A stretch of 41,568 nt of DNA from positions 1-41,568 of the forward strand of contig DAIDAO010000001.1 of NCBI GenBank assembly GCA_027310575.1, written 5' to 3'. The DNA is from a bacterium. Lineage in GTDB: Archaea; Thermoproteota; Nitrososphaeria; Nitrososphaerales; Gagatemarchaeaceae. Made by a program: the position numbers and the translations under genes. Shown piece after piece: positions 16,806 through 19,793 of the stretch (its first letter is position 1; each line of letters starts with the position of its first letter). The notes beneath the pieces were generated by a model. That model saw only the letters and a list, made by a program, of their open reading frames with translations, was not told the DNA's origin and ran no database searches.

Positions 16806-17240
16806 TCAGCTGCCGACTAGTATCTTGAGCCTGTCAAAATCCTTTCCGGAGAAGGTGCCTTCGCAGGCGTAGCACCCCTCGACCTGGAAGCTCGGCTCCA
16901 GGTCACCGTGGAGCAGGCACATCAGCTTGTTGAAGCGGATGTAGTCTAGGACCTCTGTCATCTCTCTCAGCGCCTCTCTCGTGTCGGGCTCGTCGGTGGA
17001 GAGCTCCTTCGCTATCTTGTCGGCGGCCTTCGACACGATCCTGTCGTTCTCCAGGTTGACCATCATCCCCCTGGTCTTCCTGGCATAGTTGCTCACGGAG
17101 GCCTGAGTCACTCCGAGACACTTCGCCACCTGCTGCTGCGTCATGTGGTAGTCTTCCTGAAGCCGCCTGGCCACCATCGCGCGCAGGGCAGGAAGAGCGG
17201 ACTTCGCGACGATTTCGTAAGGGCTGATCAGCTTCGACAA
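16806..17240 (-). CDS. Helix-turn-helix regulator at the head of the lipoate/2-oxoacid dehydrogenase cluster
   Basis: With a TTG start at 17240 the protein has 144 residues. This start is preferred because a TATA box TTAAATATT (17267-17275) lies about 30 bases upstream; a longer frame to 17318 would run through the promoter and into the transposon. Residues near 10-55 (SPYEIVAKSALPALRAMVAR, then MTQQQVAKCLGVTQASVSNY) are a Cro-type HTH typical of COG2522 archaeal regulators. The C-terminus has CLLHGDLEPSF followed by GCYACEG, a Cys/His cluster that could bind metal or an iron-sulfur centre. Tight linkage to lipA suggests control of lipoate synthesis; the signal is inferred only. Confidence 0.8.
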   Translation of the reverse strand: MSKLISPYEIVAKSALPALRAMVARRLQEDYHMTQQQVAKCLGVTQASVSNYARKTRGMMVNLENDRIVSKAADKIAKELSTDEPDTREALREMTEVLDYIRFNKLMCLLHGDLEPSFQVEGCYACEGTFSGKDFDRLKILVGS

Positions 17241-17247
17241 GCTTTCG

Positions 17248-17275
17248 ATAACGTATGTTATACTCCAATATTTAA
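17248..17275 (-). promoter_or_regulatory. Promoter of the lip/2-oxoacid dehydrogenase operon with palindrome
   Basis: A TATA box (TTAAATATT, minus strand, 17267-17275) is followed by the palindrome ATAAC-4-GTTAT (17248-17261) near the expected transcription start and then the TTG at 17240. The palindrome is a likely autoregulatory operator. The mobile element's target duplication begins only five bases behind the TATA box. Confidence 0.6.
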
Positions 17276-17279
17276 GCCG

Positions 17280-17287
17280 ATAGCCAC
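17280..17287. repeat. 8-bp target-site duplication, left copy
   Basis: ATAGCCAC, identical to 19786-19793 at the other end of the element. An 8-bp duplication is the usual size for IS6-family insertions. Confidence 0.85.
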
Positions 17288-17301
17288 GGTTCTGGTAACT
17301 T
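17288..17301 (+). repeat. Left terminal inverted repeat
   Basis: GGTTCTGGTAACTT, the exact reverse complement of 19772-19785. Confidence 0.88.
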
Positions 17302-17310
17302 GATTGGCGA

Positions 17311-18471
17311 CTACTCATCCTTCTTTTTCTCCCTGTTAACCGCTTGGAGATGCCCCGCGTTCTGGATTAGCGTCAGCCACTTGTTAGCGCCCTCGACCCT
17401 GATACCCGCCCTCTCTGAAGGGGTTTGACCGTCTAGGCTCTCGTGTGGCCGGATGTAGTTATGGTAGATTTGGAGCCCCTTCAGGATGGGCGTGTCCATG
17501 TTCTTGAGCCCACGCATCACCCGCTCCCTGTCCCTGACTTCGCCGTTCATGCGCTCCATCTTGTTGTTGTGGACTTGGCCCGCGAGGGCAATTTCCCTGA
17601 CATGGACGGGAACCTTTTCGGGGGTAGTCCTCCAAGCGATTTCCTTCTTGAAGGCCGAATGATAGGAGGGGAGCCCGTCCGTTATCAGAGTCTTTGGCGC
17701 TCGCCCGTTGGTGATGTCGATTCCCCGATGGAACAGGCCGCGTGGGTTGTGCCTCTCCTTGCTGTCCGCCACCTCTTGAGCAATCCAGAACCTAGTCTCG
17801 TCGTCCATCAGCGAGAACAGGTATCGCATATCCCCCTTGAATTTGACATACATCTCGTCGGCCCGCCAAGTCTCGCCTAGTTTCGGCTCGAAGTCCTTCA
17901 GGTATTCGTCCATGATTCCGACATACTTGCGAATCCACTTCAGGATAGCAACGTGGGAAACACTCACTCCTTGGAGTCTCAGAGCCTTCTGCGTGTTGCG
18001 AAGGCTCGCCCCTCCAAAGTAGATTTGCATCGCCATCGTTATCGCCTCTGGGCTCGTCCTCATCCGCTCGAAGCCGATGTTCCGAGAGAACCGTTTGCCG
18101 CACACATGACAGAGATACCTCTGGATGTCCCCGCCCTTGTGGTGGATTAGCCCGTCCTTGACAATGGCCTCCGCTCCGCAAGCGAAACAGGTCTGGTAAT
18201 CCAGAGGCACGACGCGCCTCGCGTTCTCTATTCGCCGACGAATCTGAAGCGAGAGTTCAACCGCAAAGGCGTGCTTACACTTCACGCCTCGGAACTTGAA
18301 GTCGGGGCATTCGCAGAGCCAACCGGACTCGGTTGAGAGGACGACGTATTCCCCGCTCCCCGACTGAGACCTCACGCGGTATTCGTTCTGGTCGAGCCTT
18401 CGGACGTTGGACTCGACCTTCGCAATCTCAGCGCCCCTTGAGGCGCGATAATCAAAAGCGGGGGAGTTCAA
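17311..18471 (-). CDS. IS6-like DDE transposase with SWIM zinc finger
   Basis: With TTG at 18471 the product has 386 residues. An in-frame extension to 18750 exists but crosses the promoter and operators, so it is rejected. Domains: SWIM finger C53-x-C55...C65-x-H67; zinc ribbon C95-x2-C98...C121-x2-C124; a helix-turn-helix-like region (GGASLRNTQKALRLQGVSVS, about 153-172); catalytic core with D205 (WRADEMYVKFKG), D265 (LITDGLPSY) and E306 (HNNKMERMNGEVRDRE). IS6 transposases are usually about 230 residues; the SWIM module is extra. The TTG overlaps the stop of a 29-codon upstream ORF (TTGA), pointing to translational coupling. Confidence 0.88.
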   Translation of the reverse strand: MNSPAFDYRASRGAEIAKVESNVRRLDQNEYRVRSQSGSGEYVVLSTESGWLCECPDFKFRGVKCKHAFAVELSLQIRRRIENARRVVPLDYQTCFACGAEAIVKDGLIHHKGGDIQRYLCHVCGKRFSRNIGFERMRTSPEAITMAMQIYFGGASLRNTQKALRLQGVSVSHVAILKWIRKYVGIMDEYLKDFEPKLGETWRADEMYVKFKGDMRYLFSLMDDETRFWIAQEVADSKERHNPRGLFHRGIDITNGRAPKTLITDGLPSYHSAFKKEIAWRTTPEKVPVHVREIALAGQVHNNKMERMNGEVRDRERVMRGLKNMDTPILKGLQIYHNYIRPHESLDGQTPSERAGIRVEGANKWLTLIQNAGHLQAVNREKKKDE

Positions 18472-18557
18472 TCGGACTGCCCCCTGAACGCTCGCTGATT
18501 GGCTTGGAACTCCTCGAAGTCCGCGCCCATCTCGAACCGTGCTTGTTCGGAAGTCAT
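18468..18557 (-). CDS. 29-residue leader ORF coupled to the transposase
   Basis: ATG at 18557 to TGA at 18468 encodes 29 residues, MTSEQARFEMGADFEEFQAN and a short basic-acidic tail. A TATA box (TTATATTG, minus strand, 18583-18590) places transcription start near 18560, so the ATG would be at the very 5' end of the message. The stop overlaps the transposase TTG. It may be a coupling leader that limits transposase synthesis or a small protein in its own right; no known family. Confidence 0.5.
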   Translation of the reverse strand: MTSEQARFEMGADFEEFQANQRAFRGQSD

Positions 18558-18566
18558 GTGTCCATA

Positions 18567-18609
18567 GGTGTAGATTGACACCAATATAACCCTTGTGTCT
18601 ATTGACACA
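18567..18609. promoter_or_regulatory. Twin palindromic operators between transposase and RHH gene
   Basis: GGTGT-6-ACACC (18567-18582) and TGTGTC-4-GACACA (18594-18609) share the core GTGT-N-GACAC type with ATTGACAC in both. Their centres are 27 bp apart. They overlap the transposase TATA box (18583-18590) and lie ahead of the TATA-like TTAAATAC (18623-18630) of the RHH gene. They are good candidates for binding by the adjacent ribbon-helix-helix protein. Confidence 0.65.
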
Positions 18610-18653
18610 CATAAGCACAGGGTTAAATACCGCGCCTGTCCGAGGGGGAGCCG

Positions 18654-18788
18654 ATGCAGAAGCGATACAATGTCGCAATGACAGAGGAGATGGAGAGGCG
18701 ATTGGAGGGAGAGCGGAAGAAGCACGCTCTTGACTCGATACCTGAGACAATCAGATTCATCCTCTCTGAGTATCTGGCGAAGGGCTAG
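18654..18788 (+). CDS. Small ribbon-helix-helix protein, probable transposition repressor
   Basis: A 44-residue ORF from ATG 18654 to TAG 18786-18788. The beta strand KRYNVAMTEEMERRLEGERK and the second helix SIPETIRFILSEYLAKG match the CopG/Arc fold, which is just this long. It is divergent from the transposase with two palindromes between them, so autoregulation and repression of the transposase is the likely role. Its 3' end overlaps the convergent passenger gene by 32 bases. A TATA-like TTAAATAC lies about 27 bases upstream. Confidence 0.75.
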   Translation: MQKRYNVAMTEEMERRLEGERKKHALDSIPETIRFILSEYLAKG

Positions 18789-19679
18789 GCTCCTGAGACA
18801 GGGCTTCCTCGGCAATGGTCTTCAGGAACTTGGCGGGCTCCTCTTCTAACTTCGAAAGAACAGGGCTCCGCCAGTCCTCGTCGATGCTAAGCAGAAAGTC
18901 CCTCGAATAGAGTGGATTTTGGAAGCGGTTGGAGGCACGTGCGGACAGGTTGACCATGAGCAAGGTTCCCTTCAATGGAATTGCGAGCGGTGTGTCCGTC
19001 GCGAGAAAGAACTGGCCTCTTTCCTCGAAACTGAACCCGAACGCGAACTTCTCTCCTCTTCTCGGTTCTATCTCTTCAATCTGCGGTAACGCTTCCTTCA
19101 TGAACGCCCTCGCGAGTATCACCTCTCTCCTATCCCCCTCAGCACGGATAGGAGCCTCTATCGGCTCCACGTCCATTACTGTCCTTCGGAGGTTGAGAAC
19201 CGAAGGCCAAGCCTCCCTCTTCTCATTCGGTTGCCATATGTGGAAAGAAATCTTCGGACGCGTGGCTGGCAACACGCCGTCATTCCCAATCGTGATGAAG
19301 AGGACGCGGACGTGCTTCGGGTCGGTAGTCGAGCCGTTGGCGAACTCTACTTCGTAGGTTATCTCTTTGGTTTCGATGAATACGAGCTTCGGGCGGTGAT
19401 ACCAGTCGATAAAAAAGAGAAAGCCCCCGTGAACACCGTCGCCACTATCAGAATCACCAGTAGAATCGCATTCGACACTCCTGAGCCGAATCCTTCGGGG
19501 CTGAAGACCGCTACTAGCGCGGCAATCTCTATCGGAAGCGCGACCATCACCAGAATCCATAATCGGTCGGGCATGTTTGGCGGATTGCCCCGATACTTCG
19601 CCCAGAACAACCCGAATACGACCGCCACGCCAATCGCGACCCAATAGGCGAAGTCGAGACCGAGGAAGTTCAAGCGCAA
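18757..19679 (-). CDS. Membrane passenger protein encoded in two frames joined at a T TTT TTA site
   Basis: Frame 0 starts at TTG 19679 and gives 106 residues ending at 19359, with three hydrophobic segments (about 10-27, 41-60 and 70-90). Before it stops it crosses T TTT TTA at 19416-19410, read in frame as TTT TTA. A one-base backward shift there continues as IDWYHRPKLVFIETKEITYE to a stop at 18757, for 307 residues in total. The second part is soluble and has no recognised family. Either this is a programmed -1 frameshift giving short and long products, or a single-base deletion in the T run has broken the gene. A TATA-like TTCAAATAA lies about 30 bases before the TTG. Confidence 0.6.
19410..19416 (-). 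promoter_or_regulatory. Slippery heptamer T TTT TTA, candidate -1 frameshift site
   Basis: The heptamer is in the correct register with the upstream frame (codons 89 and 90 are TTT and TTA) and has the classic X XXY YYZ form. No strong stem-loop or pseudoknot is obvious in the next 50 bases, which weakens the case. Confidence 0.45.
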
Positions 19680-19771
19680 TCGCCCCGACCCTCGTGTTAT
19701 TTGAAGCGTGGGCTGTTAACCGCGTGGAGATGGGAGAACCCGCACTTGCAAGATTTGCAGGATTCGGGGTT

Positions 19772-19785
19772 AAGTTACCAGAACC
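19772..19785 (-). repeat. Right terminal inverted repeat
   Basis: AAGTTACCAGAACC, the exact reverse complement of 17288-17301. Confidence 0.88.
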
Positions 19786-19793
19786 ATAGCCAC
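19786..19793. repeat. 8-bp target-site duplication, right copy
   Basis: ATAGCCAC, identical to 17280-17287. Confidence 0.85.

Follow-up and report, generated by a model that had tools for sequence, protein, structure and literature searches.

The window, the whole stretch of 41,568 nucleotides analysed here, belongs to a genome of 1.58 Mb in 61 contigs and contains a mobile element of 2498 bp. The element is bounded by 14-bp terminal inverted repeats that match perfectly (14/14) and flanked by an 8-bp target site duplication (TSD). An end search that was not given the boundaries beforehand recovers the same ends, confirming the boundaries drawn in an earlier sequence-only reading of this DNA. 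The description of the locus as an intact IS6-like element with passenger genes likewise holds, given the ends, the TSD, the DDE transposase, and the additional ORFs. The features of the element and of the adjacent promoter are as follows.

16806–17240, minus strand: target gene, outside the element, for an HTH-like protein; likely TTG start at 17240
17269–17279, no strand assigned: target-promoter TATA box (TTAAATA on the minus strand) plus the sequence up to the duplication, outside the element
17280–17287, no strand assigned: TSD, promoter side, ATAGCCAC
17288–17301, plus strand: terminal inverted repeat, GGTTCTGGTAACTT
17311–18471, minus strand: transposase with a SWIM finger, a zinc-ribbon-like segment, and a DDE domain; likely TTG start at 18471
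17333–17352, plus strand: 20-bp subterminal direct repeat, copy 1
18468–18557, minus strand: 29-residue acidic ORF ahead of the transposase
18567–18581, no strand assigned: second operator-like repeat, GTGTCAATCTACACC, putative role
18581–18592, minus strand: putative TATA-box region of the transposase operon, GGGTTATATTGG
18595–18608, no strand assigned: operator-like palindrome, GTGTCAATAGACAC, putative role
18654–18788, plus strand: RHH-like regulator of 44 residues, divergent from the transposase
18757–19410, minus strand: cargo frame B, soluble domain, 42% identical to its counterpart in element L096
19359–19679, minus strand: cargo frame A, membrane segments; stop at 19359–19361
19410–19416, minus strand: T TTT TTA heptamer at the change from frame A to frame B, also in L096
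19713–19732, plus strand: 20-bp subterminal direct repeat, copy 2 (19/20 match)
19772–19785, minus strand: terminal inverted repeat, other end, reverse complement of GGTTCTGGTAACTT
19786–19793, no strand assigned: TSD, far side, ATAGCCAC

This is the single full copy in its genome; four further matches are partial and 67–73% identical. At the contig edge (41130–41567) lies a second, truncated transposase relative with 58% identity. The named relatives of the transposase come from archaeal MAGs, several of Thaumarchaeota or Nitrososphaerales, one of Ca. Gagatemarchaeum, and some of Bathyarchaeota.

The transposase matches DDE_Tnp_IS240 (E = 2.3e-17) and SWIM (E = 2.4e-5), with the SWIM zinc finger in the N-terminal part. 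DDE_Tnp_IS240 is present in 13/13 family members, and the SWIM motif in 46/52 of the elements collected below. The window transposase, the only protein scored against the NCBIfam IS6 model, reaches 108 bits, under the cut-off of 125. The window element and most others combine the 8-bp TSD with a 14-bp terminal inverted repeat that has GG at positions 1–2 and G at position 7; some end with GA. DDE_Tnp_IS240, the 8-bp TSD, and the first seven end bases, which resemble the consensus GGTTCTGTTGCAAA, are shared with IS6/IS26 (PMC6807381). However, IS6/IS26 elements have a short format of about 0.7–0.9 kb with one transposase gene, whereas the elements here span 1855–6803 bp (1.9–6.8 kb; median, 3.1 kb) and add a SWIM finger, cargo, regulators, and promoter targeting (PMC7986276, PMC6807381). 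The available text of one review gives IS6 elements 789–880 bp, one transposase gene, and a sole passenger-carrying member, ISDsp3, in agreement with the sequence-only reading that IS6 elements normally carry a transposase only (PMC7986276). One of the IS6/IS26 reviews holds that archaeal members should stay outside IS6/IS26 (PMC7986276 / PMC6807381). The element is best called IS6-like, or IS6-related, and not an IS6 member.

The stop codon of the acidic ORF is overlapped by the likely transposase start at 18471. Similar acidic ORFs of about 30 residues, found by a regular expression, precede the transposase in 13/52 elements, all 13 among the 19 of the window's own family, where the conserved ORF overlaps or abuts the transposase start. 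The small ORF would be translated first, with translation of the transposase coupled to it, and its product may regulate the transposase or serve as its cofactor.

The RHH-like gene has homologues in 10/19 own-family elements, the window included. An RHH_1 match is obtained for 6/11 members (best E = 0.0023) and not for the window's own protein; with the RHH-like profile, MetJ matches at E = 0.01. GTGTCAATAGACAC and GTGTCAATCTACACC flank the transposase TATA box on both sides, and of the nine other RHH elements, most show comparable repeats around this box by eye. Some other elements carry small genes that look AbrB-like by eye. The earlier description of an RHH gene with twin operators thus stands as to the ORF, conserved in sister elements, and the repeats, with weak support for the RHH family itself. 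The gene recurs in the family. The control circuit proposed with it is plausible, and the element likely has a built-in repressor, as judged from sequence: the RHH-like protein would repress the transposase promoter by way of the palindromes around its TATA box.

The cargo was previously described as one membrane protein. Membrane segments are indeed present, but the gene is in two frames, with the membrane part running from 19679 to about 19410 and the soluble part from about 19410 to 18757. Its sole relative among the 19 own-family elements is in L096, inside another element. A search of 400 genomes of the class matched the window cargo in two, one of them the window's own, and found it nowhere outside an element; cargo genes without the element, named earlier as a finding that would speak against the element as described, were thus not found in this set. 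In both homologues the coding sequence passes to the −1 frame between the membrane and soluble parts, at T TTT TTA (position 298 of the L096 element), which has the X XXY YYZ form of programmed −1 frameshift sites in 2/2 cases. Between the window and L096, third-position changes make up 8/12 in frame A before the heptamer and 8/13 in frame B after it; over the whole frame-B domain the figure is 134/294.

The simplest reading of the two homologues is that a −1 frameshift, by ribosomal or transcript slippage, may join the frames, in which case the cargo would be a membrane-anchored protein completed by frameshifting. A precedent for −1 frameshifting in archaea is fucA1 (PMC8211752). The gene could instead be simply broken, by an indel or a sequencing error affecting its six consecutive Ts. 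The homopolymer itself and the small number of homologues fit such an accident, as does the ordinary RNA downstream of the slip site, where pseudoknot-free folding finds no stimulatory structure better than shuffles (z = 0.86 and 0.34). However, L096 has the identical heptamer and T count in a one-contig genome, at only 42% identity in the soluble part, and the third-position bias switches from frame A to frame B at the heptamer. We therefore consider a broken gene unlikely. Structure prediction for the soluble domain reaches a pLDDT of only 48.

Cargo is normal for the family and differs between copies. Among 86 scanned proteins, from 110 cargo ORFs of at least 90 residues across the elements, are matches to DNA methylases, a type I specificity subunit, Fic, AbiV-like HEPN, Mrr, HicB-like proteins, and response regulators. 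An odd freight is the proteasome-subunit family, matched by 4/86 cargo proteins (by eye, among L180, L183, L191, and L194). The elements resemble tIS, in which IS ends enclose a transposase and genes dispensable for transposition; unlike in IS6, where ISDsp3 is the only tIS, cargo is here the rule and diverse (PMC7986276). The sequence-only reading was thus right that cargo goes beyond the IS6 norm, but it is a copy-variable trait of the family rather than a special feature of this copy.

The most interesting feature of the element, missed by the sequence-only reading, is its choice of insertion site, which lies beyond its own coordinates. Ends and 8-bp TSDs were sought around 41 own-family transposase loci and 65 loci of the class. 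A first end search missed weaker ends, and a looser rule was then applied. The end searches gave 61 candidate rows, of which 52 were kept and nine dropped for spurious or off-pattern ends; as detection required an 8-bp TSD, older or odd insertions are missed. A TATA word was defined as at least 6/7 matches to TWWAWAW starting 3–7 nt outside the TSD, on the best-scoring side, with controls treated likewise. Such a word is found in 41/52 rows; among 3807 shifted positions the rate is 11.0%, and among shuffled flanks 19.6%. After removal of duplicate flanks, it is present in 38/49 distinct junctions, and in 18/49 it starts exactly 5 nt from the TSD. Several rows have target genes that are orthologous to one another, and these do not sample targets independently. 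For the own family the count is 14/19 versus 0.8% of control positions; for the other elements it is 24/30 versus 16.3%, a control rate that goes with the frequency of TATA words in AT-rich genomes. Two of the 11/49 junctions that depart from the rule, L166 and L174, are ties settled for the wrong side, the other side having a TATA word at about 7 nt, like L192.

An ORF of at least 60 residues starts 22–50 nt past the TATA word in 34/52 rows, versus 7.3% of 7617 TATA words at the same loci. As a control, 15 copies of an IS5-like element from one related genome, with five G043 copies left out, give 4/15 for the TATA word and 0/15 for the ORF start. These copies were scored with 8-bp TSDs, which only 6/15 matched at 7/8 or better; several seem to have 9-bp duplications, and offsets may be off by one base in up to nine of them. 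Two other control families were rejected: distant transposase relatives (about 30–37% identity), for which the same end search recovered nothing convincing, and IS256 (PF00872), which occurs in only 2/200 genomes.

With the criteria fixed, a later sample of 20 further loci, 10 of them from outside the class, gave nine loci with qualifying ends, five off-pattern loci, and six without ends. A TATA word is present in 6/9, versus 11.1% of 583 control positions (p = 1.2e-4). The off-pattern loci L302, L303, L304, and L305 have ACTTCYG ends and a TATA word 5–6 nt outside an 8-bp TSD; L295 has no such word there. The comparison suggests that elements with ACTTCYG ends form a sister group with the same insertion habit. 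Of two Bathyarchaeota elements with ends that were checked, L085 fits the rule and abuts a second end, and L083 falls below the score. The first 50 residues of the ORF downstream of L085 match TBP.

The HTH gene next to the window element is present in 26/31 genomes of the genus, and its promoter is readable in 26 of 27 rows. In 4/26 promoters (G000, G022, G014, and G024) an element end is located at the identical base, once in inverted orientation. The remaining 22/26, some identical or nearly identical to one another, have no element end; empty sites of the kind that the sequence-only reading proposed to look for therefore exist. In G022, the inverted element ahead of the same HTH gene is a 119-bp form with the same ends. 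By comparison of the sequences, it looks like the remnant of a deletion that removed the interval from one 20-bp direct repeat to the other. A cargo-less copy with the same ends, which had been named as evidence against the element as described, is thus found, but as an apparent internal deletion. G014 has a 65-bp end with 97% identity to the one in the window, and the HTH proteins of the two are only 82% identical, which argues against one old shared insertion. The HTH promoter also contains a palindrome, ATAACATACGTTAT, at 17248–17261, which is kept in close relatives and is perhaps the operator of the HTH gene itself.

Insertions also recur within one promoter. In 17/52 rows another element end is located at a distance of exactly 8 bp, in none of them on the TATA side and in all 17 on the promoter-distal side. 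Chance abutment of ends, expected at 0.27% per position, was rejected as an explanation. The end–8 bp–end pattern occurs at eight places in 46 genomes, versus one for the reversed pattern, and L178 contains a row of three transposases together with repeats of a single 8-mer. If one site at a fixed distance from the promoter were used again and again, the newest element would come to lie promoter-proximal and older ones would be pushed outward. At the radA promoter, six elements in as many f10 genomes that differ in length, ends, and orientation are inserted at the same base. From 40 distinct downstream ORFs listed, 25 were scanned, with matches to RadA (seven), TFB (two), and TBP (one); further matches include ribosomal proteins L3 and P1, aCPSF1, and SufB, among others, and RNA polymerase subunit P falls below the cut-off. 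The targets are basic cellular genes whose promoters are presumably busy.

Taken together, we consider it highly probable that an archaeal IS6-related family inserts cargo elements at a near-fixed spacing upstream of host TATA boxes with an 8-bp stagger. A similar distribution could arise by survivorship if the transposase inserted anywhere and only harmless insertions upstream of promoters persisted; the genomes are compact, and insertions at such positions spare both the gene and the TATA box. Survival alone does not explain a window of a few bases, with 18/49 insertions at exactly 5 nt, nor the use of one identical base across genomes, nor stacks exactly 8 bp apart and always on the distal side, and the IS5-like element in a related genome lacks such a pattern. 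We regard this explanation as very improbable. A more serious alternative is that the transposase itself reads an AT-rich or bendable sequence, independently of TBP and TFB. AT-rich or bent DNA is preferred by many transposases, and the TATA word is the only shared feature measured. However, the TATA sequences at the sites vary, and ORF starts at promoter spacing follow 34/52 insertions but 7.3% of same-locus TATA words, which favours real promoters over mere TATA words. Direct recognition of this kind is possible, though we give it less than an even chance.

The ends, the TSD, the TATA spacing, both orientations, the recurrence at the same base, and the promoter-distal stacking are read directly from the DNA; beyond them, the transposase may be guided by the promoter-bound TBP/TFB complex or by DNA shaped by TBP/TFB. 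The basal promoter would thereby survive and the host be spared. The narrower proposal, to which we assign an even chance, is that promoter-bound TBP–TFB itself delivers the element, as a counterpart of TFIIIB for Ty3, and that promoters, including those of the TBP and TFB genes, are docks used repeatedly where cargo elements pile up. The predicted transposase structure (pLDDT 59) has no PDB match below an E-value of 0.05, and the structure models give no hint of contact with TBP or TFB. The TFIIIB used by Ty3 contains TBP and a TFIIB-like factor, and Ty3, like the archaeal family, integrates just upstream of transcription start regions. However, Ty3 is a retrotransposon of Pol III genes for which contact with the factor has been demonstrated, whereas for the archaeal family we infer contact only.

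Yeast Ty3 is mentioned as a case of TFIIIB-directed integration in a study of prokaryotic Mutator-like transposases, in which TnGBS, ISLre2, and part of ISKra4 are described as inserting 15–17 bp upstream of sigma-A promoters (PMC3942029). These, too, are DDE elements that insert at a fixed distance upstream of promoters, and the TnGBS authors likewise propose contact with the initiation complex (PMC3942029). They differ in using bacterial sigma-A promoters, upstream of the −35 element, and another transposase family, whereas the family here is IS6-like and uses archaeal TATA boxes. The same source notes that archaeal ISH6 prefers an AT-rich motif, which might lead it to promoters (PMC3942029). 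In its available text, a survey of thaumarchaeal mobile elements lists IS families without mention of promoters (PMC6563490), and a large IS survey places IS6 copies near genes (<50 bp), within the general trend (PMC9208149). In the literature searched, with most subscription journals outside its scope, we found no archaeal IS described as being directed to TATA boxes.

Promoter targeting, as in bacterial sigma-A and yeast Pol III systems, would thus gain an archaeal TATA version from an unrelated transposase lineage. With their TBP and TFIIB homologue, archaeal promoters would offer a simple setting in which to study how integrases locate transcription complexes. Integration that spares genes may also be of use in archaeal genetics. 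In Nitrososphaerota, the family is where diverse cargo, including methylases, Fic, AbiV-like, proteasome-like, and HicB-like proteins, travels.
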